The notes under the pieces were generated by a model that was not told the origin of the DNA, searched no databases, and saw nothing but the letters and a program-made list of their open reading frames with translations. From Pseudomonadota bacterium (GTDB lineage Bacteria > Pseudomonadota > Gammaproteobacteria > Burkholderiales > Rhodocyclaceae), in assembly GCA_018240785.1 (NCBI GenBank), contig JAFEFC010000024.1, positions 1-64,000 of the forward strand: a stretch of DNA of 64,000 nucleotides, in the 5' to 3' direction. Positions 8,971 through 54,776 of this stretch are shown here, piece after piece. Each line of letters begins with the position of its first letter. The first letter of the stretch is position 1. A program made the translations under genes and the position numbers.

Positions 8971-11900
8971 ATGACTCCGCCTCCACCCAACGACATGCCG
9001 AGCCGCCCGTCCCGACTTCATGGCCTCCTGATTCCGTTGCTGATCTTCGCGGCCGGGCTCGCCCTGACGCACGTCGTGCAGCGCACGCTGCACCTGCGCT
9101 CGGAAGCGGCGTTGCGCGAAGAGTTCACCTATCGCGTCGACGACCTGGTCGGCAATATCCGTGGCCGGCTGGCCGCCTACGAGGAGATCCTGGCGGGCGT
9201 GGGCGGCCTGTTCACAGCGTCGCGCTCGGTGGAGCGGGGCGACTTTCGCGCCTACGTGCGTGCGCTCAAGCTCGAGAGCCGCTACCCGGGCGTACAGGGT
9301 GTGGGCTTCGCGTCGTGGATTCCGGCGGCGGAACGCGAGCGCCATGTGCACGCGGTGCGTGCGGAAGGCTTCCCCGGCTATGACATCCGTCCGCCCGGCC
9401 AGCGCGACTGGTATGCGGCGATCCTGTACCTGGAACCGTTCGACTGGCGCAACCAGCGCGCCTTCGGCTATGACATGTACAGCGAGCCGGTGCGCCGTGC
9501 CGCCATGGAGCGGGCCGCCGACGAGGACGTGACGAGCATTTCCGGCCGCGTCCGGCTGGTGCAGGAGACCGAGCGCGACGGACAGGCCGGCTTCCTGATG
9601 TATCTGCCGGTGTATCGGACCGGGGTGGCCCTGGACACGCGCGCGCAGCGGCGCATGGCGCTGCAGGGATGGGTGTACGCGCCCTTTCGCATGAACGACC
9701 TGATGAGCGGTCTGCTCGGCAGCCAGCCGGGCGAACTCGGCGCGGCCCTCGGGCTGAAGATCTACGACGGCGACGGCCGCGACGAGGATGCGCTGATGTT
9801 CGATTCGGCGGCGTCGTTCGATGCTTCCCGCGCGCTGCATCGGGTCGAGCGCGCGATCGAGGTCGATGGCCGCCGCTGGACGGTGGTGGCGCACTCGCTG
9901 CCGGCCTTCGATGCGCGGCTCAATGTCGACGAAGCCGCGCTGGTGCTGATCACCGGGGTGCTGGGCAGCGGCCTGCTGGGCGGCATCGCCTGGCTGATGC
10001 TGACCGCGCGCACGCGCGCGCTGGCGATGGCCGAGCGCATGACCGTGGAGCTGCGTCTGTCCGAAGCCAGGCACACCGCCGTGTTCGAGAACATGAGCAA
10101 TGCGGTCGCCCTGTTCCGGGCCTCCGGCGACGGCCGCGACTTCTATTTTTCAGCGTTCAATCGAGCGGCCGAGCGCATCGACCGCGTGTCGCGCGGCGAG
10201 GTGCTGGGCCGGCGCGTGCAGGACGTGTTCCCGGGTGTGGCGGACATCGGCCTGCTGGACGCGATGCGCCGCGTCTGGCAAAGCGGCAACCCGGAGGACT
10301 GCCCGGCGTGCTTCTACGCCGACGAGCATGTCTCGGGCTGGCGCGAGCGTTTCGTGTACAAGCTGCCGGATGGCGATATCGCGGTCACGTTCAACGACAT
10401 CACCGCGCGCAAGGAGGCCGAGCTTGCCCAGCAACGGCTCAACCGCGCGCTGCGCCTGCTGAGCGACTGCAACACCGCGCTCGTCCATGCCGACGATGAA
10501 TACCGCCTGCTGGTGGAGATCTGCCGGCTTATCGTCGATCGCGGCGGCTACCTGATGGCCTGGGTCGGCTATGTGGGCGAGGGCGGCGACACGACGGTGC
10601 GGCCGATCGCCCAGTCCGGCTACGAGGCGGGATATCTCGACACCATAAGGGTGACCTGGGACGAGTCCGAGTACGGCCGCGGCCCGACCGGCACGGCGAT
10701 CCGCACCGGCAGCAGCGCCATCATCCAGAACGTGCTGACCGATCCGAAGATGGCGCCCTGGCGCGAGGCCGCGCTGGAGCGCGGCTACCAGGCGTCGCTC
10801 GCACTCCCCCTGGTCTGCGAGGGCACCACGCTGGGTGCGCTGTCCCTGTATGCGCGCGAGGCCAACGCCTTCAATGCGGACGAGATCAGGCTGCTGGAGG
10901 AGATGGCGAACGACCTTGCCTTCGGCATCATCACGCTGCGCACGCGCGCCGAGCATGTCGCCGCCAAGGAACGGGTTGCCTACCTGGCGAGCTACGACAG
11001 CCTCACCGGCCTGCCCAATCGCCTGCTGTTGAGGGATCGCTTCGAGCACGCGGCGCTGATCGCCGACCGGGAGGGCGCTTCAGGCCTGCTGGGGGTGCTG
11101 TATCTCGACATGGACAACTTCCAGCATGTGAACGACGGTCTTGGCCACGAAGCCGGCGACCGGCTGCTGGTGCAGGCGGTCGAGCGGCTCAAGCAGTGCC
11201 TGCCCGAGGTCGATACCATCGCCCGCCTGAGCGGCGACGAGTTCGTGGTGCTGCTGACGAATGTCGGTGACCTGGCAGCCATCGCCGCTGCGGCCGAAGC
11301 TGTCCAGGGGGCCTTCGCCGAGCCGCTGGCAGTGGGCGAGCATCTGCTGACGACCTCGTTTTCGGTTGGCATCAGCGTGTTTCCGCACGACGGGCGGGAT
11401 TTCGAGACGCTGCTCAAGCGCGCCGACACCGCCGTGCACAACGCGAAGGAGAATGGGCGCAACACCTTCCGCTTCTACACGCGCGAGATGAACGCCGACG
11501 TCGTCGAGCGCATGCGCCTCACCGGCATGTTCCCGGGGGCACTGCGCAGGGGCGAGTTCGTGCTGCACTACCAGCCGCAGATCGATGTCGCCACTGGCCG
11601 CATCATCGGTGTCGAGGCGCTGCTGCGCTGGCAGCATCCGCTCGAGGGGCTGATCCCGCCCGGCCGCTTCATCCCGATCGCCGAGCAGAGCGGGCACATC
11701 GTCGCCATCGGCGAATGGGTGATCTCCGAAGCCTGCCGCCAGGCGCAGGCGTGGCTGGCGGACACCGGCGTCCGGCTGGTGACGGCGGTCAACCTGTCGG
11801 CGCTGCAGTTCAAGCGCGGCAACGTGCTCGAGACGGTGACCGCGGCGCTGCGCGAGTCGGGCTTGCCGCCGCACTGCCTGGAGCTGGAACTGACCGAATC

Positions 11901-12288
11901 CATCCTGCTGCAGGACGTGGAGCTGACGATGCGCACGCTGCGTGCGCTGAAGGCGCTGGGCGTGAAGCTGTCGATCGACGATTTCGGCACCGGCTATTCC
12001 AGCCTCGCCTACCTGAAGCAGCTTGCGGTGGACAAGCTGAAGATCGACCAGTCCTTCGTGCGCGACATGCTGACCGATGCCGATGGCGCCTCCATCGTGA
12101 AGGCGATCATCCAGCTCGGGCACACGCTCCAACTGAAGGTCATCGCCGAGGGCGTCGAGACCGAGGCGCAACTGGCCTTCCTCGGTGGTTCCGGCTGTGA
12201 TGAGGTGCAGGGCTACCTGTTCAGCCGCCCGGTGCCGGCAGCCGTGTGCGGCGGACTGATCGTGGCCGGGTTGTCGGCGCGCACATGA
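8971..12288 (+). CDS. CHASE-PAS-GAF-GGDEF-EAL cyclic-di-GMP protein
   Basis: This ~1105-residue inner-membrane protein has a helix at about 15-35, a periplasmic CHASE domain (about 60-310), a second helix near 330-350, PAS (about 370-480), GAF (about 500-655), GGDEF (about 670-835) and EAL (about 850-1095). The cyclase signature is SGDEF rather than GGDEF, and the upstream inhibitory RxxD is not evident. The EAL motif EALLRW, DDFGTGYSSL and KIDQSF indicate an intact phosphodiesterase. Starts at 8920, 8971 and 8995 are in frame; none has a clear ribosome site, so the start is uncertain. It is divergent from the DUF1615 gene. Confidence 0.88.
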   Translation: MTPPPPNDMPSRPSRLHGLLIPLLIFAAGLALTHVVQRTLHLRSEAALREEFTYRVDDLVGNIRGRLAAYEEILAGVGGLFTASRSVERGDFRAYVRALKLESRYPGVQGVGFASWIPAAERERHVHAVRAEGFPGYDIRPPGQRDWYAAILYLEPFDWRNQRAFGYDMYSEPVRRAAMERAADEDVTSISGRVRLVQETERDGQAGFLMYLPVYRTGVALDTRAQRRMALQGWVYAPFRMNDLMSGLLGSQPGELGAALGLKIYDGDGRDEDALMFDSAASFDASRALHRVERAIEVDGRRWTVVAHSLPAFDARLNVDEAALVLITGVLGSGLLGGIAWLMLTARTRALAMAERMTVELRLSEARHTAVFENMSNAVALFRASGDGRDFYFSAFNRAAERIDRVSRGEVLGRRVQDVFPGVADIGLLDAMRRVWQSGNPEDCPACFYADEHVSGWRERFVYKLPDGDIAVTFNDITARKEAELAQQRLNRALRLLSDCNTALVHADDEYRLLVEICRLIVDRGGYLMAWVGYVGEGGDTTVRPIAQSGYEAGYLDTIRVTWDESEYGRGPTGTAIRTGSSAIIQNVLTDPKMAPWREAALERGYQASLALPLVCEGTTLGALSLYAREANAFNADEIRLLEEMANDLAFGIITLRTRAEHVAAKERVAYLASYDSLTGLPNRLLLRDRFEHAALIADREGASGLLGVLYLDMDNFQHVNDGLGHEAGDRLLVQAVERLKQCLPEVDTIARLSGDEFVVLLTNVGDLAAIAAAAEAVQGAFAEPLAVGEHLLTTSFSVGISVFPHDGRDFETLLKRADTAVHNAKENGRNTFRFYTREMNADVVERMRLTGMFPGALRRGEFVLHYQPQIDVATGRIIGVEALLRWQHPLEGLIPPGRFIPIAEQSGHIVAIGEWVISEACRQAQAWLADTGVRLVTAVNLSALQFKRGNVLETVTAALRESGLPPHCLELELTESILLQDVELTMRTLRALKALGVKLSIDDFGTGYSSLAYLKQLAVDKLKIDQSFVRDMLTDADGASIVKAIIQLGHTLQLKVIAEGVETEAQLAFLGGSGCDEVQGYLFSRPVPAAVCGGLIVAGLSART

Positions 12289-12324
12289 AGCGGCGCCCGG
12301 CCTCGACCGGCGGGCGAGGGCCGC

Positions 12325-12570
12325 TCAGGCCAGGCGGCGTTGCGGCAGGTGCGGACGCGAGCCGGTGCCGGCCTCGTTGAGGGCAGTGCGCAGCATCTTT
12401 TGCGCGGTGCGGTGCATTTCATGCCAGCTCGGCGCTGCCGACATCGCCGCGTTGGCCGAGGCGATGGCCGCAAGCAGCATCGCGTTCTGCGCGCGAAGCC
12501 GCTCGACCTCGCCGGCGAGGCTGGCGGTCGGGTGACGGTCATGGGCATGGGTGCGTTCGATGGCTTTCAT
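12325..12570 (-). CDS. Small putative coiled-coil protein
   Basis: This 81-residue protein has a helix rich in Leu and Ala (SLAGEVERLRAQNAMLLAAI), suggesting a short coiled coil. A strong AAGGAG site lies 9 nt before the ATG, which argues that it is a real gene. No family recognised. It converges on the GGDEF-EAL gene. Confidence 0.55.
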   Translation of the reverse strand: MKAIERTHAHDRHPTASLAGEVERLRAQNAMLLAAIASANAAMSAAPSWHEMHRTAQKMLRTALNEAGTGSRPHLPQRRLA

Positions 12571-12715
12571 GATATTGCTCTCCTTTTCAGTCCCTCCGCG
12601 CCGGCGCCGGCCTGCTGCCGGTCGCCGTTTCGCTCCACGTGCCGTCGTTGCGGCACCGGTTCATCGGGAGGACGAATGCAGTGTACGCGGCGGTTTTTAA
12701 TTCGTAAAATGAATA

Positions 12716-12729
12716 GAAATCATAATTTC
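12716..12729 (+). promoter_or_regulatory. Possible operator of the LysR gene
   Basis: The inverted repeat GAAAT-CATA-ATTTC lies 21 bp upstream of the LysR ATG, in a markedly AT-rich leader. Position and symmetry suit an autoregulatory site, but no experimental support is visible. Confidence 0.35.
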
Positions 12730-12749
12730 AATTCTTCAAGAGAATCATT

Positions 12750-13643
12750 ATGGATGTACGTGCTTTGCGCTATTTCGTCGAGGTCGTGAATCAGCAGGGT
12801 TTCACCCGGGCGGCGGAAGTCCTGCATGTCACCCAGCCGACCATCAGCAAGATGGTGCGCAGCCTGGAGGAGGAGCTCGGCGGCCCGCTGCTGATCCGCG
12901 ACGGCCGCCATACCCGGCTGACCGAGGCCGGCAAGGTGGTGCATGCGCGTGGCCAGGCGGTGCTGGGTGAGGTCGCCCGCCTGCGCCAGGAAGTGGCCGA
13001 GGTCGATGGCCTCTCCCGCGGCGAGCTGACGATCGGCATCCCGCCGGCGACCGGCTCGTACTTTGCGCGGGCGATCGGTGCCTATCGCCAGCAGTATCCC
13101 GACGTGACGCTGCGCCTGCGCGAGCAGGGCACGCGCGCGCTGGAAGATGCGGTGGTCAGCGGCGAACTGGACATCGGGGTGACCTTCCTGCCGGTGTCGC
13201 GACCCGGACTGGCCAGCTATCCGGTGGCGAGGCAGGCGGCGTCGGCCCTTTTCCCCGCCTCGCGCACGTCGGCCAGCGCGGGGCCGGTGTCGTTCCGCGA
13301 ACTGGCCGACTACCCCTTCGTGCTGTACGAGGACGACTTCGCGCTGGCGCGCATGGTGTCCGATGCCTGCGCCAGCGCCGGCTTCATCCCCAACGTGGTC
13401 GCGCGCAGCCGCTACTGGGACTTCATCGGCGAGCTGGTGGCGGCCGACGTCGGCATCAGCATCCTGCCCGACGAAGCCTTCGCCCGCCTCGATCCCGCGC
13501 GCATCGTGCGGCGGCCGGTGCGCGAACCCGAAGTGGTGTGGGATCTCGGCCTGATCTGGCGCGAAGACTATGTGTCGCGCGCGGCGCGCGCCTGGCTGGA
13601 CTGCTGCGAGCGGATCTTTTCGCCGGCACCGGAATCGAACTGA
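12750..13643 (+). CDS. LysR-family regulator
   Basis: This 297-residue protein has an N-terminal winged helix-turn-helix (residues 3-60, GFTRAAEVLHVTQPTISKMV) and a periplasmic-binding-fold effector domain (about 90-290). It is 23 bp upstream of a short-chain dehydrogenase on the same strand, so it may control or be co-transcribed with it. Effector unknown. Similar regulators of the CidR type exist, but a closer call is not justified. Confidence 0.85.
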   Translation: MDVRALRYFVEVVNQQGFTRAAEVLHVTQPTISKMVRSLEEELGGPLLIRDGRHTRLTEAGKVVHARGQAVLGEVARLRQEVAEVDGLSRGELTIGIPPATGSYFARAIGAYRQQYPDVTLRLREQGTRALEDAVVSGELDIGVTFLPVSRPGLASYPVARQAASALFPASRTSASAGPVSFRELADYPFVLYEDDFALARMVSDACASAGFIPNVVARSRYWDFIGELVAADVGISILPDEAFARLDPARIVRRPVREPEVVWDLGLIWREDYVSRAARAWLDCCERIFSPAPESN

Positions 13644-13666
13644 GGCATCGCAAGGAGGCTGTCACC

Positions 13667-14401
13667 ATGATCAGGGCGATCGTCACCGGACACAGTCGCG
13701 GCCTGGGCGCCGCCATCACGGAGAACCTGCTGCAGCGGGGTGTTGCCGTGCTCGGGCTGGCACGCCGGCCCAATGATGCGCTGGCCGCGCAGTTTGGCGG
13801 CAGCCTGGCGCAGCACGCCATCGACCTGGCTGATTCAGCGGCGCTGGCAGCCTGGATCGCGGGCGGCGAGCTTGCCCGTTTCGCCGCAGGCAGCGAGACC
13901 GTGCTGCTGGTCAACGACGCCGGCACGCTGCACCCGGTCGGGCCGCTGCGCCTGCAGGACGCGGCCGCCATCGCCGGTGCAGTCGCGCTCAACGTCGCCG
14001 CGCCGCTGATGTTGGCTGCGGCGGTGGCCGCGCTGCCGGACGTCGGCGAGCGGCGCGTGCTGCATGTGTCCAGCGGTGCGGCGCGCAAGCCCTACGCCGG
14101 CTGGAGCGTGTATTGCGCAACCAAGGCGGCGCTCGACCACCATGCGCGCGCGGTGCAGGTGGATGGTGGCGCCGGCCTGCGCATCTGCAGCACGGCGCCG
14201 GGCGTCGTCGATACCGACATGCAGGCGACGGTGCGTGCGTGCACGCTGGAGCAGTTTCCGCTGCGCGACCAGTTCGCCGCCATGCAGCAGGCCGGCGGCC
14301 TCATCGCGCCGGCCGCGGCGGCGGCCCGGCTGGTGGCCTACTTGCTCGGTGACGATTTCGGTGCGCAGCCGACGATGGACCTGCGCGACCTGCCCGGTTA
14401 A
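13667..14401 (+). CDS. Short-chain dehydrogenase/reductase
   Basis: This 244-residue SDR has the nucleotide motif TGHSRGLG (residues 7-14), an NDAGTL segment equivalent to NAG, and the catalytic Ser-Tyr-Lys arrangement in VSSGAARKPYAGWSVYCATK. An AAGGAGG site precedes the ATG. The small, basic N-terminus (ARRPN) after the second strand suggests NADPH preference. Substrate unknown; sepiapterin-reductase-like members look similar. Confidence 0.82.
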   Translation: MIRAIVTGHSRGLGAAITENLLQRGVAVLGLARRPNDALAAQFGGSLAQHAIDLADSAALAAWIAGGELARFAAGSETVLLVNDAGTLHPVGPLRLQDAAAIAGAVALNVAAPLMLAAAVAALPDVGERRVLHVSSGAARKPYAGWSVYCATKAALDHHARAVQVDGGAGLRICSTAPGVVDTDMQATVRACTLEQFPLRDQFAAMQQAGGLIAPAAAAARLVAYLLGDDFGAQPTMDLRDLPG

Positions 14402-14432
14402 CAGCGGTAGAAGTCTCGATCACGCGTCATGA

Positions 14433-14489
14433 TCGCGGTCAAGCCCGCTCCTACGGGTGCGGTCTCCGTAGGAGCGGGCTTGACCGCGA
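14433..14489. repeat. REP-like hairpin, family B copy 1
   Basis: Perfect inverted repeat with 24-bp arms (14433-14456 and 14466-14489) and a 9-nt loop; the core is GTAGGAGCGGGCTTGACCGC. It lies between convergent genes (SDR and pyk), where it could end transcription in both directions. Related elements are at 19202-19269 and 20102-20208. Confidence 0.9.
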
Positions 14490-14538
14490 CCCGCCACGTT
14501 CCGGTCGCGGCCAGGTCGGCCTTCACCCCGGCGCAAGA

Positions 14539-15957
14539 TCAGCCGGGAATCCGCTCCACATGCAGCAGGTTGGTGCTGCCGCTGCGGCCGAAGGGCAGGC
14601 CGGCGATGACGACGATGTTGTCGCCGGGGGCGGCGAAGCCGTGGGTGACCGAGGCGCTGGCCGCATGCGCCACCATCTCGGTGACGTCGGCGACCTGCTC
14701 GAACGGGATCGGATGCACGCCCCAGGCGAGCGCCAGCCGGCGTGCGGTGCCGAGCTGCGGCGTCAGCGCCAGGATGGGCGCCACCGGGCGCTCGCGGCTG
14801 GCTCGCAGCGCGCTGAAACCCGAGGATGTGTAGGCCACCGTGGCGGCCGGCTCGAGCAGCGCGGCGACGCGGCGCAGCGCGCAGCAGATCGCGTCCGGCG
14901 TGTCGGTGCCGGCTGGCGTGTGGCTCGCGTCCAGGCCCTCGCGCCAGGCCGGGTCCTGCTCCACCTCGCAGATGATGCGATGCATGATGCTGACCGCTTC
15001 CACCGGATACTGGCCCGATGCGGATTCGGCCGACAGCATCACCGCATCGGCGCCGTCGTAGATCGCGGTGGCGACGTCCGAGGCTTCGGCGCGGGTGGGC
15101 ACCGGCGCGGTGATCATCGATTCCAGCATCTGCGTCGCCACCACCACCGGGCGACCGGCGGCGCGCGCCGCGCGCACGATGCGCCGCTGCAGCACCGGCA
15201 CCTGCTGCGGCGGCAGTTCCACGCCGAGGTCGCCGCGCGCCACCATGATGCCGTCGGCCAGCGCGACGATGGGCTCGAGCTGCTCGATCGCCGAAGGCTT
15301 CTCCAGCTTGGCCATGATCCATGCGCGGTCGCCGATGATCTCGCGCGCCTCGCGGATGTCCTCGGCGCGCTGCACGAAGGACAGCGCCACCCAGTCCACG
15401 CCCAGCGACAGCCCGAAGTCGAGGTCGGCGCGGTCCTTGGCGGTGAGCGGCGAGATCGGCAGCACCACGCCGGGCACATTGACGCCCTTGCGGTCGGACA
15501 GCACGCCGCCCACCAGCACGGTGGTGTCGGCGAAGTCGGGGCCGTAGGCATCCACCCGCAGGCGCAGCTTGCCGTCGTCGAGCAGCAGCTCGGTGCCGGC
15601 CTCGAGCGCGGCAAAGATTTCCGCATGCGGCAGGTTGGCGCGACGCACGTCACCTTCCTCCGGCGACAGGTCGAGGCGGAAGCGGGCACCGGGTACCAGC
15701 GTGACCTTGCCTTCGGCAAAGCGGCCGACGCGCAGTTTCGGCCCTTGCAGGTCCATCAGCACGCCGATCGGGCGGCCGAGCTCTTCCTCGACCTGGCGGA
15801 TCTGCTTCAGGCGCTCGGCGTGGTCGGCATGGCTGCCATGGCTGAAGTTCAGGCGGAACACGTCGGCGCCGGCGTCGGCCAGCGCGCGGATGCGTTCGAT
15901 GGTGGAGCTCGCCGGCCCCAGGGTGGCGAGAATGCGGGCACTGCGTTCGCGTTTCAT
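14539..15957 (-). CDS. pyk: Pyruvate kinase
   Basis: This 472-residue pyruvate kinase has the N-terminal ATLGPAS, the barrel active-site segments RLNFSHG, MDLQGPKLR, IMAKLEKPSA (catalytic lysine) and MVARGDLGVELP, and the signature TRAEASDVATAI. It converts PEP and ADP to pyruvate and ATP. It is last of the glyoxylate operon, and its ATG overlaps the upstream stop by 4 bp (15954-15957). As a dedicated operon copy it would pull PEP made from glycerate into pyruvate, as the second pyk of other glycerate operons does. Confidence 0.95.
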   Translation of the reverse strand: MKRERSARILATLGPASSTIERIRALADAGADVFRLNFSHGSHADHAERLKQIRQVEEELGRPIGVLMDLQGPKLRVGRFAEGKVTLVPGARFRLDLSPEEGDVRRANLPHAEIFAALEAGTELLLDDGKLRLRVDAYGPDFADTTVLVGGVLSDRKGVNVPGVVLPISPLTAKDRADLDFGLSLGVDWVALSFVQRAEDIREAREIIGDRAWIMAKLEKPSAIEQLEPIVALADGIMVARGDLGVELPPQQVPVLQRRIVRAARAAGRPVVVATQMLESMITAPVPTRAEASDVATAIYDGADAVMLSAESASGQYPVEAVSIMHRIICEVEQDPAWREGLDASHTPAGTDTPDAICCALRRVAALLEPAATVAYTSSGFSALRASRERPVAPILALTPQLGTARRLALAWGVHPIPFEQVADVTEMVAHAASASVTHGFAAPGDNIVVIAGLPFGRSGSTNLLHVERIPG

Positions 15958-43016: not shown

Positions 43017-43883
43017 TCAGCCGGCCTGCTGCGGCGGCCACGGCCGCCCGCGGCGGCGGCAGAAATCGCGCAACAGCCAGTGGGCGATGGTCGACTGGCT
43101 GGGCAGAGAGGCGGGCAGCGCGTCCACATGGAAGAAGCCGGCGTGCTCGATCTCGTCCGGCGCGCAGACGATGTCGCCGGCCTCGTATTCGGCCTGGAAG
43201 CCCAGCATCAGCGAATGTGGAAAAGGCCAGGGCTGGCTCGTGAAGTAGCGCACGTTGCGCACGCGCAGCGCCACTTCCTCGGCGATCTCGCGGTGGATCG
43301 CCTCCTCGGCCGATTCGCCGGCGTCCACGAAGCCCGCCAGCGTGCTGTAGAAGCCGGGCGCGAAGTGGTAGGAACGGCCGAGCAGGATCTCGTCGCCGCG
43401 CTCCACCGCGACGATCACCACCGGCGACACGCGCGGATAGTGCTCGCGGCCGCAGGCGGGATTGGTGCAGCGCCGCACCTTGGCGTCGCCCGGCTGCACC
43501 GTCGGCGAACCGCAGGCGCCGCAGAACTGGTGCGCGCGGTCCCATTCGAGCAGTTCCAGCGCGCGCGCGGCGAGGCGGCGGAGGTTGTCGGGCAGGACGT
43601 CGTTGAGGCGCTTGAGGTGGGTGAAGCGGGTGCCCGGCGGCGGTTCGGCGTCGGCCGGCAGTTCCGCCGCCTGGCAGGGCAGGCCGGCGCCCGCCCCGGC
43701 GTCGGCCGGCACGCCCAGCGACTGGGTGCGCAGCGGCAGCCGACCGAGCGCGCTGAGCGCGTCGCCCGCCGGCAGCGTGCCGGCGTCGGTGAGCAGCAGT
43801 TCGGCGCCGCGAAACGCCAGCCAGTGCAGCGGCTGCGCCAGTGCGCCGGCGGCGGCATCCTGCCCCATTCCCGGTTCATCCAT
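43017..43883 (-). CDS. nudC: NADH pyrophosphatase (NudC)
   Basis: This 288-residue protein has the NudC zinc ribbon (FCGACGS and RRCTNPACG) and the Nudix box GFVDAGESAEEAIHREIAEE, followed by the NADH-specific SQPWPFPHSLMLGF. It cleaves NADH or NAD caps on RNA to NMN products. Its ATG lies 8 bp inside the end of the Hsp70 gene, so translation is coupled to it. Confidence 0.92.
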   Translation of the reverse strand: MDEPGMGQDAAAGALAQPLHWLAFRGAELLLTDAGTLPAGDALSALGRLPLRTQSLGVPADAGAGAGLPCQAAELPADAEPPPGTRFTHLKRLNDVLPDNLRRLAARALELLEWDRAHQFCGACGSPTVQPGDAKVRRCTNPACGREHYPRVSPVVIVAVERGDEILLGRSYHFAPGFYSTLAGFVDAGESAEEAIHREIAEEVALRVRNVRYFTSQPWPFPHSLMLGFQAEYEAGDIVCAPDEIEHAGFFHVDALPASLPSQSTIAHWLLRDFCRRRGRPWPPQQAG

Positions 43884-45147
43884 AACGTCTTGCCGCCTCC
43901 ACTGCGAGTCCGGCTCCGATACTGCCATACAGATCGCCTTCCACGCTGCGCGCCGCCGGCAGCTCGGCGGCGATGCGAGCGCGCAGTTGCGCCACCCCGC
44001 TGGCGCCACCGGTGAAGTAGATCGTGTCCACGCGCTCGCGGCGCACGCCGGCCTGCGCCAGCAGGGCGCCCACGCATTCGCCGACGCGCTCGACCAGCGT
44101 GCGGGTGGCGCGGCTGAAATCCTCGCGGGTGATGGCGTGCGTCAGGCCGGCTTCGAGGCGGTCGAGGTTCAGCGTCGCGATCGGCGCGGCCGACAGGTCG
44201 ATCTTGGCCTCTTCCACCTGCAGCGCCAGCCAGTGGCCTTCGCGCCGGCTCACCAGCCGCGACAGGCGGTCGAGTTCGGTGCGCGCCAGCGCATCGCGGT
44301 AGATGTGCTGCAGGTCGGCCCACGCCTGGCGGCTGTAGGCGAAGTTGATGGTGTGCCAGGTGGCGAGCTGGAAGAAGATGCTGGACGGGATCTCGGCGCC
44401 GTTCTTCATGCGGCCGCGATAGCCCAGCAGCGGCATCACGCATTCCAGGCTCAGCACGCGGTCGAAATCGGTGCCGCCGATGTGCACGCCGGCATTGCCC
44501 AGCAGGTCTTCATGGCGCTCGGCGTGTTTGCCAAGGCCGCGCGCGCGCTCCGGCGACAGGCGCACCAGCGAGAAATCCGCGGTGCCGCCGCCGATGTCGG
44601 CGATCAGCACCAGCTCCTCGCGCGCCAGCGAAAGTTCGTAGTGCAGCGCCGCGCCGATCGGCTCGAACTGGAAGCTGACCTCGCGAAAACCCACCTGATG
44701 CGCGATCGCCTCCAGCGTGTCCTGCGCCTTGCGGTCGGCGGCTTCGTCGTCGTCGACGAAATGCACCGGGCGGCCGAACACCGCCTGCTCGAAGGAACGC
44801 CCGGCCTGCGCCTCGGCGCGCCGCTTGAGCTCGCCGATGAAGCTCGCCAGCAGGTCGCGAAAACGCAGCGCGCGGCCATGCACCTCGGTGTGGCCGTCGA
44901 TCAGGCTGCTGCCGAGCAGGCTCTTCAGGGCGCGCATGAGCCGGCCTTCGTAGCCTTCGAGGTACTCGGCGAGCGCGGCGCGGCCGTAGCAGGTGCTGTC
45001 CTCGTCGGCATTGAAGAACACCGCCGACGGTAGCGTCGGCCGGCCATCCTCGAGTGCGAGCAGGGCCGGCGCATCCGGGCGCAGCCAGCCCACGGTGGAG
45101 TTCGAGGTGCCGAAGTCGATGCCGCAGGCGCGGGCAGGTGCTTGCAT
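43876..45147 (-). CDS. yegD: Hsp70-family protein (YegD type)
   Basis: This 423-residue protein has only the actin-like ATPase domain of Hsp70: CGIDFGTSNSTVGW (phosphate 1), IADIGGGTADFSLV (phosphate 2) and YFTGGASGVAQLRARI (adenosine site). It lacks the C-terminal substrate-binding and lid domains of DnaK, as YegD proteins do. Client unknown. It overlaps nudC by 8 bp. Confidence 0.9.
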   Translation of the reverse strand: MQAPARACGIDFGTSNSTVGWLRPDAPALLALEDGRPTLPSAVFFNADEDSTCYGRAALAEYLEGYEGRLMRALKSLLGSSLIDGHTEVHGRALRFRDLLASFIGELKRRAEAQAGRSFEQAVFGRPVHFVDDDEAADRKAQDTLEAIAHQVGFREVSFQFEPIGAALHYELSLAREELVLIADIGGGTADFSLVRLSPERARGLGKHAERHEDLLGNAGVHIGGTDFDRVLSLECVMPLLGYRGRMKNGAEIPSSIFFQLATWHTINFAYSRQAWADLQHIYRDALARTELDRLSRLVSRREGHWLALQVEEAKIDLSAAPIATLNLDRLEAGLTHAITREDFSRATRTLVERVGECVGALLAQAGVRRERVDTIYFTGGASGVAQLRARIAAELPAARSVEGDLYGSIGAGLAVEAARRYG

Positions 45148-45310: not shown

Positions 45311-46894
45311 ATGAATACGACCGAACCGACGCCGGCCACCGGCAATGGCAGCACGGCTTTCCCGCTCGCGCTGCGGCGGGTGGCGATCGACACGTATCGC
45401 GAGAACGTCGCCTACCTGCATCGCGACTGCGAGGTTTATCGCGCCGAAGGCTTCCAGGCCCTGGCCAAGGTCGAGGTGCGCGCCAATGGGCGGCGCATCC
45501 TCGCCACGCTCAACGTCACCACCGACCCGCGTATCGTGCGCTGCAACGAGCTCGGGTTGTCGGAGGACGCTTTCGCGCAGCTTGGCGCCAGTCCGGGCGC
45601 GTCGGTGGTGGTGTCGCAGGCCGAGCCACCGACCTCGATCCCGGCCCTGCACCGCAAGATCGCCGGCGAGCGCCTGACACGCGACGATTTCCAGGCCATC
45701 GTGCGCGACATCGCCGAGCACCGCTATTCCAAGATCGAGCTCACCGCCTTCGTGGTCGCGTCCAACCAGGGCGAGCTCGACCGCGAGGAGGTCTACTTCC
45801 TCACCGAGGCGATGTCCGCGGTCGGCAGCCGGCTCGACTGGCGCGAGCGGCCGGTGGTGGACAAGCACTGCATCGGCGGCATTCCCGGCAACCGCACGTC
45901 CATGCTGGTGGTGCCCATCGTTGCGGCGCACGGCATGCTGTGCCCCAAGACCTCGTCGCGCGCGATCACGTCGCCGGCCGGCACGGCCGACACCATGGAA
46001 GTGCTGGCCAACGTCGAGCTGCCGATGGAGCGCCTGTCCGAGATCGTGCGCGAGCACCGCGGCTGCCTCGCCTGGGGCGGCACGGCGCAACTGTCGCCGG
46101 CGGATGACGTGCTGATCTCGGTGGAGCGACCGCTGTCGGTCGATTCGCCGGGCCAGATGGTGGCCTCCATCCTGTCGAAGAAGATCGCCGCCGGTTCCAC
46201 CCACCTGGTGCTGGACATTCCGGTGGGGCCGAGCGCCAAGGTACGCTCGATGCCCGAGGCGCAGCGCCTGCGCAAGCTGTTCGAGTTCGTCGCCGCACGC
46301 CTGAACCTCGCGCTGGATGTGGTGATCACCGACGGTCGCCAGCCCATCGGCGGCGGCATCGGCCCGGTGCTGGAGGCGCGCGACGTGATGCGGGTGCTGG
46401 AGAACGACCCGCGCGCGCCCAACGACCTGCGCCAGAAGGCGCTGCGCCTGGCCGGACGCATGCTGGAGTTCGACCCTGACGTGCGCGGCGGCGACGGTTT
46501 CGCCATTGCGCGCGACATTCTCGACTCCGGCCGTGCGCTGGCGAAGATGAACGCGATCATCCAGGCCCAGGGCGGCAAACCCTTCGACCACAACGCGCCG
46601 GCCCTCGCGCGCCTGGACTTCGTCGTCGCGGCGCCGGCCGATGGTGTGGTGACGGCGATCGACAATCATCAGCTTGCCCGCATCGCGCGCCTGGCCGGCG
46701 CGCCCAAGGTGCCCGGCGCAGGCGTCGACCTGCAGCGCAAGCTGGGTGATCCGGTGGTGGCGGGCGAGGCGCTGTACCGGGTGCACGCCGATTTCCCCGC
46801 AGATCTCGAGTTCGCCCGCCAGGCTGCCGCGCGCGCGAGCGCCTACAGCATCGGTCGGGTGGACGAGGTGCCGCACATGTACGTGGAGCTGTGA
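45311..46894 (+). CDS. AMP phosphorylase-type NMP phosphorylase
   Basis: This 527-residue member of the thymidine/AMP phosphorylase family has an N-terminal extension of roughly 85-100 residues that bacterial DeoA lacks. The core [20 protein letters not shown] and [20 protein letters not shown] matches archaeal AMP phosphorylases, not the GGVGDVTS/GRGLGHTGGT of DeoA. Expected reaction: nucleoside monophosphate plus phosphate to base plus ribose 1,5-bisphosphate. The stop overlaps the next start (TGATG). Reading it simply as thymidine phosphorylase is the main alternative. Confidence 0.85.
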
Positions 46895-47802
46895 TGGACC
46901 TGCTGCTGCATTTCGACGACGAGCGCGATGCCGCGCAGCGCCTGGCGCGCGAAGCCGGGCTGGCCCCGGCGTGCATCGAGCGCCATCGTTTCCCCGACGA
47001 CGAGTTGCGCCTGCGCCTGCCGGTCGATGGCGGTGGCGGTCTGCCGCTGCGGGCGGTGCTGTTCCGCAGCCTGGTCCGCCCCAACGAGAAGCTGGTGGAA
47101 TTGCTCTTCGCTGCGCGTACTGCGCGCGTGCTCGGCGTCGGCCACCTGACCCTGGTCGCACCTTACCTCGCCTACATGCGGCAGGACATCGCCTTTCACC
47201 CCGGCGAGGTGGTCAGCCAGCGGGTGCTGGGCGAGTTCCTTGCCGGCCTGTTCGATGCCGTCATCACCGTCGATCCGCACCTGCACCGCGTGGCGAGCCT
47301 GGCCGAAGCGGTGCCGACGCGCCACGCGGTGGCGTTGTCTGCCGCGCCGTTGCTGGCCGACCTGATCGCGGCCCGATGTGGCGGTGCTGCCCCGGTGCTG
47401 ATCGGTCCCGACGCCGAGTCGGCGCAGTGGGTCGGCGCCGCCGCGGCGCGGCACGGCTTCGATCACGCGGTGTGCAGCAAGCGCCGTCATGGCGACCACG
47501 AGGTCGATGTCGAGCTGCCGCCGCTGGACCTGCGGGGCCGCGCCGCGGTGCTGATCGACGACGTCGCCAGTTCCGGTCGCACTCTGGCGCAGGCTGCACG
47601 CCTGCTGCTGCAGGCCGGGGCCGCCCGGGTGGACGTCGCGGTCACCCACGCCCTGTTTGCCGACGATGCGCTGCCGACCATCCTGGACGCGGGGGTCGGG
47701 CAGGTGTGGAGCACCGACTGCATCGCCCATCCGACCAATTCCGTTGCCATCGCGCCGCTGCTGGCCGCGGCCTTGCAGGTCCTGGCTGGGGATCGGGCCT
47801 GA
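46894..47802 (+). CDS. Divergent ribose-phosphate pyrophosphokinase homologue
   Basis: This 302-residue Prs-like protein retains HRFPDDELRLRLP, PYLAYMRQD, a flexible-loop KRRHGDHE and the PRPP loop VLIDDVASSGRTLAQA. Several positions differ from canonical Prs (DPHLHR for DLHADQ, VASSGRT for MIDTAGT). It may make PRPP from ribose 5-phosphate or handle a related substrate such as ribose 1,5-bisphosphate. The ATG is fused to the upstream stop as TGATG, so the two proteins are made together. Confidence 0.85.
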   Translation: MDLLLHFDDERDAAQRLAREAGLAPACIERHRFPDDELRLRLPVDGGGGLPLRAVLFRSLVRPNEKLVELLFAARTARVLGVGHLTLVAPYLAYMRQDIAFHPGEVVSQRVLGEFLAGLFDAVITVDPHLHRVASLAEAVPTRHAVALSAAPLLADLIAARCGGAAPVLIGPDAESAQWVGAAAARHGFDHAVCSKRRHGDHEVDVELPPLDLRGRAAVLIDDVASSGRTLAQAARLLLQAGAARVDVAVTHALFADDALPTILDAGVGQVWSTDCIAHPTNSVAIAPLLAAALQVLAGDRA

Positions 47803-47966
47803 GCCCACCCAGGCCTGCTCGCGTCGCCGGTCCTATGCCCGGGCGATGACGCTGGACGGGCCGCAGTGTTACGATTCAGGCCTGTATCGATGTGGCCAGG
47901 TCGGGTTTGGCCAGATTTGCCGTGTGGTGCCGTGGCCTGCGGCCTTGCAGCAGGCGCCCGTTTTTC

Positions 47967-48893
47967 ATGAGGAATGATGTGGAACAGTCGGTGAGGACCG
48001 TCGTATTTGTCGACCTGACGGGCAGTACCGGTCTGTTCGAATCGATCGGCAATGTCCTGGCGACACAGGTCGTCACGCGGTGTACGCAGGCCATCGGCCA
48101 GCATTTCGCGCGCGCCGGCGGGCATATCGTCAAGTACCTGGGCGACGGCGTGCTGGTGCTGTTCGACGACACCGTGGCCGCGGTCGAGGCCTGTGCGCGG
48201 GTCAAGGAGCTGCTCGCCGAGCTCGACATCGCCGAACTGCGCAGGGTGCGGCTGGAGGCCAAGACCGGCGTCGAGCGCGGGCTGATCGTCGAGCACGACG
48301 GCGATTGCTATGGTGACGCGGTCAACGTGGCCGCCCGCCTGAGCGACCTGGCCCAGTCGGGCGAGATCCTCGTCGGCGAGTCGGTCTACGCCTGCCTGCC
48401 GGATTTTCACCGCGTCGCCTGCCACAACCTCGACCGCATCATCATCCGCGGCAAGGCCGAGCCGATGCGCGTGTGGCGCATCGACTGGGCGCGAACCGCC
48501 GAAACGACGCTCACGGCGCCGATGGAGTTCTTCGAGATGCAGGGCGAAAGGCCGGCCCAGCACCGCATCGATCTCAACTGCATGGACCAGCACCTGCGGC
48601 TCGAGCCGCACGACGGCCCGCTCATCATCGGTCGCGGCCAGGATGCAGGCTTCCAGGTGAACGACCAGCGCGTGTCGCGGCGCCATGCCCGCATCGAGTG
48701 GAATGGTGGCCAGTGCGTGCTCACCGACTCGAGCAGCAACGGCACCTGGGTGCGCTTCGCCGGTTCGCCGGTGGCGGTGACGCTGAGGCGCGACAGTTGC
48801 ACGCTCAATGGCGAAGGCGAGATCGGCCTCGGCGCCACGGCCGACGATTTCACCGCGCCCACAGTGGGCTTCCGCGTGCTCAACGACGCCTGA
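47967..48893 (+). CDS. Class III nucleotide cyclase with FHA domain
   Basis: This 308-residue protein has a class III cyclase domain (about 8-185) with metal aspartates in VVFVDLTGST (D16) and VKYLGDGVLVLF (D60) and the DAVNVAARL segment. A C-terminal FHA domain (about 205-285) follows, with IIGRGQDAGF, VSRRHARIEW and SSNGTWV. It likely makes cAMP or cGMP and binds phosphothreonine partners. A GTG at 47979 is preceded by GAGGA and may be the true start. Confidence 0.85.
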   Translation: MRNDVEQSVRTVVFVDLTGSTGLFESIGNVLATQVVTRCTQAIGQHFARAGGHIVKYLGDGVLVLFDDTVAAVEACARVKELLAELDIAELRRVRLEAKTGVERGLIVEHDGDCYGDAVNVAARLSDLAQSGEILVGESVYACLPDFHRVACHNLDRIIIRGKAEPMRVWRIDWARTAETTLTAPMEFFEMQGERPAQHRIDLNCMDQHLRLEPHDGPLIIGRGQDAGFQVNDQRVSRRHARIEWNGGQCVLTDSSSNGTWVRFAGSPVAVTLRRDSCTLNGEGEIGLGATADDFTAPTVGFRVLNDA

Positions 48894-51339: not shown

Positions 51340-52191
51340 TCAGCCCAGGCGGGCGAGGGTGCCGGCGTCTGCCAGCGCCATCACCACGTTGCCGCTGCCG
51401 GAGGACTGCGCGTACTCGCCGTACTGGCGACCGGCGAGCGGGCCGGCGTCGGCTGCCATCGCGCGTGCCACGCCCAGCATCGTCGCCAGCGGGCGGCCGC
51501 CCATCTCGGCGCCGACGAACTTGCTGTACTCGGTGATGCCCTCCACGGCCTCGTCGATCTTCCCCGCCTTCAACTGTGCGATGAAGCGCTGGTCGGCCTC
51601 GATGCGCTCGGGCAGCGGCCAGTTCTCGCGGCCGCGCACCAGCACGTGCGAGAGCGCCGAGCTGGTGACGAACACCACGCGCCGGCCGAGTTTCTTCGCC
51701 GTCGCATGCACCAGCTCACCCGCGCTCAGGCATTCCTCGTGCGTCGACATCAGCACCGAGGGCAGCGCCACCACCGGCACGTCGCCTGTCGGGTCGAGAT
51801 ACTGCATCGGTACGAAAGTGCCGTAGTCCCACTCGAAGTACTCGGAGTCGTTGCGGTTCGACGGCACGCCACCGGCCTTGAACGCTTCGACCAGCGCGCC
51901 GGCGAATTCCGGGTCGCCCGGGTAGTCGTAGGGCCGGCCCGGGATCAGTTGCGGCGCCTCGTCGGCGACGCAATGGCCAACGTGGCGCGGCTGGCAGGTC
52001 ACCGGCCAGTCGAAGGTGGCCACCCAGTGGCTGGAGACGATCACCCACAGGTCGGGCTTCAACTGGCGGCGAATCGCTTCGCCCAGCGCGCGCTCGGCCG
52101 CCACCAGCGTCTGCTGGTAGTCGGGGGTGTTCTTTGCCAGCCCCAGCGTGGGCACATGCGCCGCGATCGTCGCGGCAATCACTCCACTCAT
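51340..52191 (-). CDS. Class III extradiol dioxygenase (LigB type)
   Basis: This 283-residue enzyme has candidate Fe(II) ligands H12 (TIAAHVPTLG), the His of IVSSHWVATF and a glutamate in KFVGAEMGGRP, with catalytic His in SSALSHVLV. It belongs to the LigB/MhpB superfamily that opens catechol rings. With mobA and pobA nearby, protocatechuate is the likely substrate, but the alpha subunit LigA of protocatechuate 4,5-dioxygenase is absent. It is last in the mobA-led operon. Confidence 0.82.
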   Translation of the reverse strand: MSGVIAATIAAHVPTLGLAKNTPDYQQTLVAAERALGEAIRRQLKPDLWVIVSSHWVATFDWPVTCQPRHVGHCVADEAPQLIPGRPYDYPGDPEFAGALVEAFKAGGVPSNRNDSEYFEWDYGTFVPMQYLDPTGDVPVVALPSVLMSTHEECLSAGELVHATAKKLGRRVVFVTSSALSHVLVRGRENWPLPERIEADQRFIAQLKAGKIDEAVEGITEYSKFVGAEMGGRPLATMLGVARAMAADAGPLAGRQYGEYAQSSGSGNVVMALADAGTLARLG

Positions 52192-52215
52192 CGTCGTTTC
52201 CCCTCAGTTAACGGC

Positions 52216-52689
52216 TCAGTTGACAGTATTCGCGCCCGCTTTCGCGGCCGCTTCTTCATCGGCCTCGCGCTTGGCGATGTTGGCCAGGATCTCGGCGCCA
52301 CGGTTGGCCGCCGACAGGCCGCGGAACAGGAAGGCGAGGCCGATGGTGGCCTGCAGTTCTTCCCAGGTGGCGCCGGCGCGGCGCGCGGCGATGGCGTGCA
52401 GCGGGGCAGCGTCGTTCAGATCCATCATCAGCATGCCGAACAGCATCAACTGCGAGGTCTTCACGTCGAAGCACTTCGGGTACATGGCGTGCGCGCGCAT
52501 CTGCTCCTGCAGCTCGAGCAGCTTGGGGTCGAGCGCGCCCGTCACGTTGATGCGCGCCTCGATGCGCGGCGGCACGAAGCCGATCAGCTCCTTGTAGATG
52601 GCGAAGCGCTCTTCCTGCGTGTAGTCCTGCTCGGCGTAGGCGCCGATGCGTTCGCGGACGAGGTCGATATTGACGCGAGGGGGAATCAT
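52216..52689 (-). CDS. Carboxymuconolactone decarboxylase/AhpD-like protein
   Basis: This 157-residue helical protein has the CMD-family core: MLMMDLNDAAPLHAIAARRA, a GATWEELQATIGLAFLFRGL helix, and RGAEILANI. The AhpD CxxC pair is not present, so redox activity is unlikely. It lies between mobA and the class III dioxygenase, suggesting a role tied to the ring-cleavage product or as a structural partner. Start ATG with GGAG upstream. Confidence 0.8.
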   Translation of the reverse strand: MIPPRVNIDLVRERIGAYAEQDYTQEERFAIYKELIGFVPPRIEARINVTGALDPKLLELQEQMRAHAMYPKCFDVKTSQLMLFGMLMMDLNDAAPLHAIAARRAGATWEELQATIGLAFLFRGLSAANRGAEILANIAKREADEEAAAKAGANTVN

Positions 52690-52865: not shown

Positions 52866-54776
52866 TTACCGGAGAATTCCAGCAAAGAACGAAGACAACT
52901 CGGCGAAGCCATCCAGCGGCAAGACGTGCGCAACGTACTGGTCGGGACGAACCACGACCATGGCCCCCTTGTCGCGGTCGATGCCACGCATGTCGAAGAT
53001 GTCGCCGAGGCCCTTGTGATCGACGCAGAAGACCTTCTCGTGGTCCTGCAGGCCGAGCTTTCCGGTCTTCGGCTTCAGCAGGGACGGCATGTTCTCGTAG
53101 GCGAGCTGATCGAAGGTCTGCTGGAATACCGCGCGGAAGTCGATCACTGCGTCGATGTCTTCGCCCTCGCGGGTATGCTTGACGACAGGCGAGCTGGGGT
53201 TGGTTTCCAGCCAGTCCGCGAGCTTGTGGATCGCGGAGCCGGCGTCGGAGCTGTCCGCCTTGCCGGCGAACGCGTAGATGCGCCAGCGTGCGTCTGCCTC
53301 GGCGGCATGGCCCAGTTGCATCTGCTTGGCATCCGCCACACGTACCACCGGGGCCGAGTGGAAGCGACGGCCAATCTCCAGCTTGCTCGCCAGCGCCTGG
53401 TGAGTCCCTGCGCCAATCACTTGGGACTGGTCGTATTTCACCGCATTGCCGCCGGTGAATTCCAGGTTCTCCTTGAACTGGCGGATGATGCGCGGCTCCT
53501 CGGTGCCATTGCGCTCAGCCTCGGTGGTCGGTGCCGACATGACGCGAGCCCACTTGTGATCCGTCTCGACCAGACGCTTGGCCTCGGTCAGACGCTCCCT
53601 GGAGTAGGTTCGCAGCAGGCTGGCGTCAGCCCGTCCCTGGAGGACGTGCACCAGTTTCCAGCCCAGGTTGAAGGTGTCCTGCATCGACACGTTCATCCCC
53701 TGGCCGGCCTTGGGCGAGTGCGTGTGGCAGGCGTCGCCGGCGGTGAAGACGCGAGGATTGCGAACCTCGCCTTCGGGAACATCATCGAATCGGTCGGTGA
53801 TGCTGTGACCAATCTCATAGATCGACCACCAGACCACCTCCTTCACGTCGATCGAGTACGGCTTGATGATGCGGTTGGCCGCGGCAATGATGTCATCCTG
53901 GTTCAGCTTGCGCTGCGCGATCTTCTCGTCCGGCGCGAGCTTGTCGAGCTCGACGTACATGCGGAAGATGTAGCCGCCCTCGCGCGGCAGGATCAGCACA
54001 TTGCCCTCCTTGGCGGAGGAAATCAGGCACTTCTGGCGAATATCCGGGAAATCCGTGTTGGCGAGGATGTCCATCACACCCCAGCCCTGATGCGCGGCAT
54101 CGCCATGCAGTTGGCCGCCGATCGACTTGCGCACTGCGGAATGCGCACCATCGCAACCGACCACGTAGTTGGCGCGCACGGTGCGGGTTGCCCACCAATT
54201 GATGCCGGTGGCGTCCTTCAGCGTCACGGTGACCGGATGATCGTCGGTGGTGGGATCGACCGTCACATTCACGACTTCCCAGCCGTAATCCGGTTCAAGC
54301 CGCGAGGGCGAGTTCTGCATGACTTCCAGGAACAGTTGATGCATGCGCGCCTGGTTGATCAGGATATGCGGCATTTCCGAGCTGTCATCGGCCACGTCCT
54401 GCACGCGACCGACGCGCTTGATGTGCTCGGGATTCTTGGGATCGGGCATCCAGAACGCGGTCTGGTTGACCCAGTAGGTTTCGCGCTTGACCTTGTCGGC
54501 AAATCCGAAGGCCTGGAACATTTCCATGGTGCGCGTGTTGATGCCGTCGGCCTTGCCCTTGATGATGTTGCTGGGCATGCGCTCGATGATCATCGTCTCG
54601 ATCTCGGGGAACTGCGACAACTGGGCAGCCAGACACAAGCCGGCAGGACCGGTGCCGGCAATCAGCACATCCACCTTTTCGGGCAAGGGTTCGTTGATCC
54701 CGCGGTTGCGACGGTTCGGTGCCGCCGGCTTGATGTCGGGGTTGCCACCTCTGAATCCATTCTTGTAGAACTGCAT
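52866..54776 (-). CDS. mobA: 3-hydroxybenzoate 4-monooxygenase
   Basis: This 636-residue flavin hydroxylase of the phenol hydroxylase type has the FAD motif VLIAGTGPAGLCLAAQL, the CDGAHSAVRKSIG segment and GDACHTHSPKAGQGMNVSMQD, then a C-terminal thioredoxin-like domain (about 470-636). The length and divergent LysR match MobA, which makes protocatechuate from 3-hydroxybenzoate. Phenol 2-monooxygenase is the alternative. GGAGGAAA lies before the ATG. Confidence 0.85.
   Translation of the reverse strand: MQFYKNGFRGGNPDIKPAAPNRRNRGINEPLPEKVDVLIAGTGPAGLCLAAQLSQFPEIETMIIERMPSNIIKGKADGINTRTMEMFQAFGFADKVKRETYWVNQTAFWMPDPKNPEHIKRVGRVQDVADDSSEMPHILINQARMHQLFLEVMQNSPSRLEPDYGWEVVNVTVDPTTDDHPVTVTLKDATGINWWATRTVRANYVVGCDGAHSAVRKSIGGQLHGDAAHQGWGVMDILANTDFPDIRQKCLISSAKEGNVLILPREGGYIFRMYVELDKLAPDEKIAQRKLNQDDIIAAANRIIKPYSIDVKEVVWWSIYEIGHSITDRFDDVPEGEVRNPRVFTAGDACHTHSPKAGQGMNVSMQDTFNLGWKLVHVLQGRADASLLRTYSRERLTEAKRLVETDHKWARVMSAPTTEAERNGTEEPRIIRQFKENLEFTGGNAVKYDQSQVIGAGTHQALASKLEIGRRFHSAPVVRVADAKQMQLGHAAEADARWRIYAFAGKADSSDAGSAIHKLADWLETNPSSPVVKHTREGEDIDAVIDFRAVFQQTFDQLAYENMPSLLKPKTGKLGLQDHEKVFCVDHKGLGDIFDMRGIDRDKGAMVVVRPDQYVAHVLPLDGFAELSSFFAGILR

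Follow-up and report, generated by a model that had tools for sequence, protein, structure and literature searches.

A phosphorylase gene and a PRPP-synthetase-like gene overlap in the window

We analysed a pair of adjacent genes on a 64,000-nt stretch of DNA (hereafter the window) from contig JAFEFC010000024.1 of a Rhodocyclaceae genome (assembly GCA_018240785.1). The first gene encodes a protein resembling nucleoside 5'-monophosphate (NMP) phosphorylases, and the second a divergent homologue of phosphoribosyl pyrophosphate (PRPP) synthetase (Prs), here called the Prs-like protein (Table 1). An earlier note on this DNA had placed the two open reading frames (ORFs) at 45311..47802, and both were found there, as were the motifs that it quoted from the phosphorylase translation. 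In the window sequence the phosphorylase stop codon TGA (46892-46894) and the Prs-like start codon ATG (46894-46896) share one base within TGATG, an overlap that the note had read correctly. Its wording 'translationally fused' was wrong, since these are separate ORFs for two proteins with an overlapping stop and start; the separate ORFs rule out a true fusion, and the two genes are probably translationally coupled. Third-position GC content (0.90 for the phosphorylase ORF, 0.86 for the Prs-like ORF) is as expected of real genes in a GC-rich genome, and the two proteins matched their profiles with E-values of 1.9e-213 and 5.8e-111. Given the profile scores and the conservation of the pair described below, chance is excluded as an explanation for it.

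Table 1. Positions of the gene pair, its motifs and neighbours (window coordinates) and of related loci elsewhere (locus coordinates).
Feature	Position	Strand	Remarks
NMP-phosphorylase-like gene	45311..46894	+	527 aa; NCBIfam NF003338/PRK04350 subfamily; annotated 'thymidine phosphorylase'
Divergent PRPP-synthetase homologue gene	46894..47802	+	302 aa; NCBIfam NF005537/PRK07199
TGATG, phosphorylase stop and Prs-like start	46892..46896	+	One shared base; from sequence
SRAITS, residues 216-221 (GRGLGH in DeoA)	45956..45973	+	From alignment; segment common to Thermococcus AMP phosphorylase
Lys310, equivalent of Thermococcus Lys288	46238..46240	+	From alignment; Phe in three DeoA-type proteins
DPHLHR, residues 127-132	47272..47289	+	From alignment; in place of the DLHAxQ-type motif of ordinary Prs
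GPDAE, residues 171-175	47404..47418	+	From alignment; Glu175 replaces Gly of ordinary Prs
Hsp70-like gene	43876-45147	-	Divergent, upstream of the pair
Gene for protein with adenylate-cyclase and FHA domains	47892-48893	+	Downstream of the pair
Second, diverged set in the window genome	G000:C29:115000-134500 (L010) 8856-15075	-	Prs-like, phosphoketolase-like, beta-CASP metallo-beta-lactamase-type nuclease, phosphorylase
PhnN-phosphorylase fusions, each next to nadC	L171 7662-10681; L172 7622-10616; L173 6470-9430
PhnN-phosphorylase fusions, each next to nadC	L174 6425-9077; L177 9159-12154; L178 9125-12091

The first protein resembles AMP phosphorylases

The phosphorylase scored 709.4 bits against NF003338/PRK04350 (cut-off 434) and 611.6 bits against TIGR02645 (cut-off 434.6; alignment from residue 20), and it just missed the curated AMP phosphorylase equivalog TIGR03327 (AMP_phos) with 500.5 bits against a cut-off of 535. 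All the DeoA-type cut-offs were missed (TIGR02643, 158.2 against 570.7 bits; TIGR02644, 197.1 against 409.05; NF004490, 204 against 269; NF004747, 133.9 against 559). The AMP-type profiles aligned from residue 19-20 and the DeoA-type profiles only from 113-115; by these alignment starts the N-terminal extension of archaeal AMP phosphorylase type that the earlier note had described is present. The closest solved structure by sequence was 4ga5 (E 1.2e-102), an entry titled 'putative thymidine phosphorylase' which we take to be the Thermococcus AMP phosphorylase.

For the archaeal enzyme we assume a nucleotide site made up of G168, residues 194-199, T203, D256, S264 and K288, the contacts with AMP being those presumably known from the annotation of the AMP phosphorylase family. 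In an alignment of 57 sequences, the window protein was identical to the archaeal enzyme at all these site positions, among them the presumably nucleotide-binding SRAITS segment, D278, S286 and K310, whereas three DeoA-type proteins had GRGLGH for SRAITS, E for D278 and F for K310. The 52 other bacterial rows held a single change at the nucleotide-site positions, an R for D278 in one of the PhnN fusions described below. Among named loci SRAITS was exact in 75 of 79 (L088, L095 and L101 have one changed letter each; L123 was not parsed). The tree separated the DeoA-type from the AMP-type proteins with 100/100 support; its single archaeal row fell outside the bacterial rows on a long branch, which may join DeoA falsely, and the bacterial side had support of only 87/70. 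These profile scores, site residues and the tree split support an AMP/NMP-phosphorylase-like protein rather than DeoA. The earlier note had called it an archaeal-type AMP phosphorylase and not DeoA; the likeness to AMP/NMP phosphorylases and the distance from DeoA held up, including in the tree, where it had allowed for clustering with DeoA, and the missed AMP_phos cut-off leaves the narrower name less secure.

The archaeal enzyme of the pentose bisphosphate pathway, exemplified by Thermococcus kodakarensis TK0352 (4ga5/4ga6), has the same domain layout, SRAITS and a Lys aligned with Lys288, and probably carries out the same reaction as the bacterial protein. That reaction is given as NMP + phosphate to base + ribose 1,5-bisphosphate (R15P) in passages of PMC9700705. 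The bacterial phosphorylase differs in having DKHC where the archaeal enzyme has DVHS, in missing the AMP_phos cut-off, and in being coupled to a Prs homologue where the archaeal pathway instead uses an R15P isomerase and form III RubisCO.

The Prs-like protein departs from ordinary PRPP synthetases at two motifs

The Prs-like protein has a full-length PRPP-synthetase fold and retains RQD, the K-x-R loop and the DD of the ribose-phosphate loop. Compared with ordinary Prs (1u9y, 3mbi and human PRPS1), which carry DxG and a DLHAxQ-type motif, PRK07199 proteins have DxE, DPHLHR and a nearly invariant region S273/H279/N282. L130, H131 and R132 were present in all 81 PRK07199 sequences aligned and L-H-R in none of four ordinary Prs, and DPHLHR was found in 79 of 79 named loci. 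What we take to be the Prs signature, D-[LI]-H-x-x-Q near residue 130, is not met by the Prs-like protein, and archaeal Prs deviate from this pattern too. In the loop at GPDAE, presumably pyrophosphate-binding, DxE was present in 81 of 81 PRK07199 sequences against DxG in 4 of 4 ordinary Prs, and Gly also occupies the Glu175 position in solved enzymes of Thermoplasma, Sulfolobus and Bacillus. Both L130-H131-R132 and Glu175 were invariant in a more diverse 22-row alignment as well. The window genome encodes two other Prs proteins without the DxE and metal-motif changes. The Prs-like protein matched 16 families, and PhnN (TIGR02322) was not one of them.

The two genes co-occur and adjoin across Pseudomonadota

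Conservation was assessed in an even phylum sample of 398 genomes and a class sample of 369 genomes, with six positives common to both. The phylum sample held 40 genomes with both genes, 5 with the phosphorylase only, 1 with PRK07199 only and 352 with neither, and the class sample 71, 5, 8 and 285, respectively (Fisher p 3e-48 and 3e-60, uncorrected for relatedness). In 38 of the 40 and 69 of the 71 genomes with both genes, PRK07199 followed downstream in the same orientation, its start less than 400 bp away. Among 61 relatives, the phosphorylase exceeded its family cut-off in 24, all of which had PRK07199 (E up to 1e-60), while 3 had PRK07199 only and 34 neither; it was found in 22 of 29 genomes of the window genome's genus (its own included) and over the cut-off in 0 of 8 genomes of other genera of the family. 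In addition, 80 named loci were compared, these being the best-scoring of at least 572 and not a random sample. PRK07199 was directly downstream in 79 of them, from Pseudomonas, Halomonas, Arsukibacterium and many Burkholderiales. By a nearest-start rule, the one-base TGATG overlap recurred in 40 of the 79 and a 4-base overlap in 7, a 14-base overlap was assigned in three more, and one frame was left unparsed. The pair is thus conserved far beyond this strain; the earlier note had named a lack of such conservation as grounds for refuting its reading. Unlike ordinary Prs, PRK07199 lives with an NMP phosphorylase.

Several Thauera genomes showed other arrangements. In L170 and L175 (G018 and G022) the Prs-like gene and a cyclase-like neighbour like that of the window were retained with no phosphorylase over the cut-off, and the phosphorylase gene has apparently been lost. 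About 23 kb separated the two genes in G006 (L165/L166) and G009; judged by eye, some ORFs of this gap in G006 resemble phage genes, which points to an insertion within the operon. In G004, G005 and G027 the Prs gene was on a different contig from the phosphorylase.

PhnN is an alternative partner of the phosphorylase

Five phylum-sample genomes carry the phosphorylase without PRK07199. In four of them a PhnN domain precedes it in one fused protein (164.4, 185.6, 181.4 and 168.8 bits against a curated cut-off of 156); the fifth has a truncated gene, whose match stops at profile position 341 of 502, beside a metallo-beta-lactamase (MBL) gene. Passages of PMC9700705 and PMC11452294 have PhnN forming PRPP from R15P. 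The four fusions stem from the same sample that prompted the PhnN idea. Two more, in named plasmids of Variovorax sp. SRS16 and Pacificitalea manganoxidans, had both halves by tblastn and were sought with one of the fusions as query; 2 of 113 records covered 80% or more of that query, and a third plasmid record, from Paraburkholderia, carried no annotation at this place. PhnN itself belongs to the P-loop kinases, akin to guanylate kinase, and is unrelated to the PRPP-synthetase fold of PRK07199; the likeness lies in the proposed reaction, R15P + ATP to PRPP, and in the same phosphorylase as partner, which is fused in the PhnN case.

The adjoining nadC is the sole nadC in three of the four fusion genomes searched, and therefore in this clade NAD synthesis may draw on the PRPP, or nicotinate mononucleotide (NaMN) may be what the phosphorylase acts on. 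A PRPP-recycling route from quinolinate to nicotinate is possible, in which NadC would form NaMN, the phosphorylase would release nicotinate and R15P, and PhnN would return PRPP. In Variovorax, bug27 is reported beside nadC and phnN in a passage of PMC11452294, and the word 'thymidine' occurs 0 times in that paper. Some fusions were near transport genes (TAXI/TRAP, a tricarboxylate-type binding protein), and L171 had an FAD monooxygenase and an Fe-S hydroxylase subunit that looked by eye like nicotinate degradation, with NCBIfam scores under the cut-offs.

An MBL-type nuclease and a phosphoketolase-like gene accompany the pair in some genomes

An MBL gene lay beside the phosphorylase or the Prs gene (1.5-kb flanks) in 11 of the 28 best-scoring phylum-sample loci, and also, for the most part overlapping by 4 bases, in annotated loci on plasmids of Roseovarius, Variovorax and Bradyrhizobium. 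All three adjoining MBL proteins scanned had Lactamase_B, Beta-Casp and RMMBL ('RNA specificity') domains, and because of the Beta-Casp and RMMBL domains the protein is likely an RNase. Among the 80 window-type loci an MBL gene was adjacent in L120 only, and none lies beside the window pair.

The window genome holds a second, diverged set (Table 1), in which the PRK07199 protein scored 434 bits and the phosphorylase is 44.6% identical to that of the window. Its four-gene order (Prs-like, phosphoketolase-like, MBL, phosphorylase) was also found in two genomes of other families (L167, L168). The second set is near UspA-like and PHA-synthase-like genes, and a perfect palindrome, CTGATGCAGATCAG, two mismatches from an FNR/FixK-type box, lies about 155 bp upstream of L010 15075 (-), before the second Prs-like gene.

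In Bradyrhizobium diazoefficiens, homologues of the phosphorylase, Prs and MBL genes stand together as bll3117-bll3116-bll3115. Passages of PMC9104804 give this as a predicted operon with a FixK2-type box at -74, whose outer genes are lower in a fixK2 mutant under microoxia, and all three genes are listed in a passage of PMC6515984; these passages are table rows that assign no biochemical role. According to the same parts of the two papers, this operon and a phosphoketolase-acetate kinase operon are both FixK2-dependent under microoxia (PMC6515984, PMC9104804). The window pair differs in having neither the MBL gene nor an FNR/FixK-type box upstream (best candidate, 4 mismatches). Of the 80 named loci, 78 were testable, and 15 of these had a candidate box with no more than 2 mismatches in the 300 bp upstream, against a background of 8.9% for random 300-bp windows of those loci and 3.0% for shuffled upstream sequence; the box signal is weak.

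A proposed route from nucleotides to PRPP through R15P

If a phosphorylase has PhnN as its partner in some genomes and a modified Prs in others, the simplest reading is that it makes R15P and that the partner converts this to PRPP. Our preferred reading, to which we give not quite an even chance, is that the pair is a two-step salvage unit (NMP + phosphate to base + R15P, and R15P to PRPP) in which the Prs-like partner acts on R15P. We infer both reactions, and their direction. In the first, as family and active-site residues suggest, the phosphorylase would split NMPs with phosphate to give the free base and R15P; in the second, the Prs-like partner would phosphorylate R15P with ATP to PRPP, to which the PhnN fusions, the altered pyrophosphate loop and the absence of any R15P isomerase or PhnN found in the genome all point. 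The partner would then be an R15P kinase on a PRPP-synthetase fold, doing PhnN's job by another route, and the beta-CASP/RMMBL-type ribonuclease found in the same operon of many genomes could supply the NMPs from RNA. We hold somewhat more tentatively a wider proposal, that PRK07199 is a new activity on this fold, an R15P kinase yielding PRPP + ADP and unrelated to PhnN, which would complete a Pseudomonadota-wide module from RNA through NMP and R15P to PRPP (beta-CASP nuclease, NMP phosphorylase, R15P kinase), the PhnN-phosphorylase fusions being the last two steps built independently.

Other outlets for R15P were sought in the window genome. Against the R15P isomerase profile the top-scoring protein (164 bits, cut-off 314) was the methylthioribose-1-phosphate isomerase MtnA, and no PhnN was found over the cut-off, the best match being guanylate kinase; since neither was found, the Prs-like protein would be the obvious outlet. 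The earlier note had stated that neither isomerase nor RubisCO is present; this holds for the isomerase, MtnA being its profile's only match, and has to be narrowed for RubisCO, as a large subunit is encoded outside the window on contig C44 (800 bits against 438, PRK04208). By score this RubisCO is not form III (413 against 497), and with no isomerase found, an isomerase-RubisCO outlet is rejected for this genome, as is one through a PhnN elsewhere in it. The note's proposal of an NMP-to-PRPP loop gains independent support from the PhnN fusions, R15P being a likelier substrate of the Prs-like protein than ribose 5-phosphate (R5P).

R5P is the substrate in the alternative that we rank next, which we consider rather unlikely. 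The Prs-like protein would be an ordinary PRPP synthetase dedicated to the operon (R5P + ATP to PRPP + AMP), R15P being handled elsewhere, and its PRPP would recapture bases or rebalance nucleotide pools after RNA breakdown. The full-length fold, a score above the general PRPP-synthetase cut-off (TIGR01251), the retained RQD, K-x-R and DD motifs and the existence of Prs-only genomes fit this, but the family-wide change of Gly to Glu in the pyrophosphate loop, the different metal motif and the two unaltered Prs proteins already in the genome do not, nor do an alternative fusion partner that acts on R15P rather than R5P and the failure to find an R15P isomerase in the genome. The phosphoketolase-like gene of the second set and of two genomes of other families, together with the shared FixK2 dependence of the two Bradyrhizobium operons, would suit an energy-saving ribose catabolism at low oxygen, with RNA degraded through NMPs to R15P, the Prs-like protein moving the C1 phosphate to AMP or ADP and freeing R5P, and a phosphoketolase-like enzyme forming acetyl phosphate after isomerisation. 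We consider this improbable, as moving phosphate from a sugar 1-phosphate onto AMP or ADP would, we presume, be uphill, none of the 80 window-type loci had a match to the phosphoketolase-like protein beside it, an FNR/FixK-type box is missing upstream of the window pair, and the PhnN fusions point the other way.

Two further alternatives concern the phosphorylase itself. It could be a phosphoribosyltransferase of the TrpD/DeoA superfamily that uses PRPP supplied by its partner, given weak matches to TrpD profiles (33 and 57 bits in the two copies), the structural class that we take TrpD to share with it, and a partner that makes or binds PRPP; with AMP-phosphorylase-group profiles scoring hundreds of bits higher and nucleotide-site residues identical to those of the archaeal phosphorylase, this seems very improbable. 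An ordinary DeoA-type thymidine or pyrimidine-nucleoside phosphorylase, as annotated, has only the annotation of relatives in its favour and is scarcely credible: DeoA identity is rejected on the four missed cut-offs, the differing site residues (neither GRGLGH nor the Phe is present) and the full-support tree split.

Several observations weigh against the two-step salvage unit that we prefer. If the freed base were then re-used, making PRPP from NMP would amount to a futile cycle, except where the PRPP goes elsewhere. The Prs-like protein exceeds the TIGR01251 cut-off and the R5P site is largely intact in PRK07199, which leaves room for an ordinary enzyme acting on R5P. Of the 81 Prs-like sequences, the majority are close to the window type. 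The sampled genomes are phylogenetically non-independent, and the Fisher p-values ignore their relatedness. PRK07199 occurs with no phosphorylase nearby in G588, G671 and G711 of the class sample, and without a phosphorylase in G437 of the phylum sample and three Thauera; the other class-sample genomes with PRK07199 only have a short 36% phosphorylase match (G770), a 4.7-kb contig (G739) or the gene at a contig end (G728, G742, G789). The PhnN evidence rests on six fusion proteins that form one clade (100/100), carry I for T196 and S for C187 in the 57-sequence alignment (S also replaces C187 in two other rows), and all adjoin nadC, not an RNase. Because of this single clade, its neighbourhood and the two changed sites, the substrate of the fusions may differ from that of the window phosphorylase. 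We had predicted, ahead of the class sample, that PhnN would accompany any phosphorylase lacking PRK07199; this failed, holding in 0 of 2 informative genomes: of the five phosphorylase-only genomes, two had PRK07199 cut by a contig end and one the phosphorylase itself cut, and in G589 and G656 neither PRK07199 nor PhnN was near the phosphorylase. Neither was found in the 19.4 kb covered at an Azospirillum plasmid phosphorylase or in 20 kb at L129, the sole exception among the 80 named loci. A universal PhnN-or-PRK07199 rule is refuted.

On our preferred reading the pair adds a new bacterial branch to R15P metabolism that is already known, and it does not amount to a system of a new kind. Few makers and users of R15P have been described and the metabolite is poorly understood; the proposed pathway, if true, would give bacteria a widespread route from nucleotides through R15P to PRPP that needs neither R15P isomerase nor form III RubisCO. 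It would also be a candidate case of the familiar PRPP-synthetase fold turned to a different phosphoryl transfer, and the database names 'thymidine phosphorylase' and 'ribose-phosphate diphosphokinase', borne by hundreds of such genes, may both mislead. Among the titles and abstract beginnings covered, no paper on the PRK07199/PRK04350 pair or on a PhnN-phosphorylase fusion was found; earlier mention within papers on AMP phosphorylase or R15P is possible.

Neighbouring genes in the window

The Hsp70-like gene and the gene for the cyclase/FHA protein that flank the pair (Table 1) were both retained in 4 of the 80 named loci (L050, L051, L052, L084). A Thauera sp. 2A1 record has the same neighbourhood as the window, with the first protein 99% identical, and the window genome belongs to Thauera or lies very close to that genus. 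Further along the window, two adjoining ORFs at 51340-52689 (-) resemble by eye both subunits of a protocatechuate 4,5-dioxygenase-type ring-cleavage enzyme, and a large FAD-monooxygenase-like ORF (52866-54776) adjoins these putative subunit ORFs.

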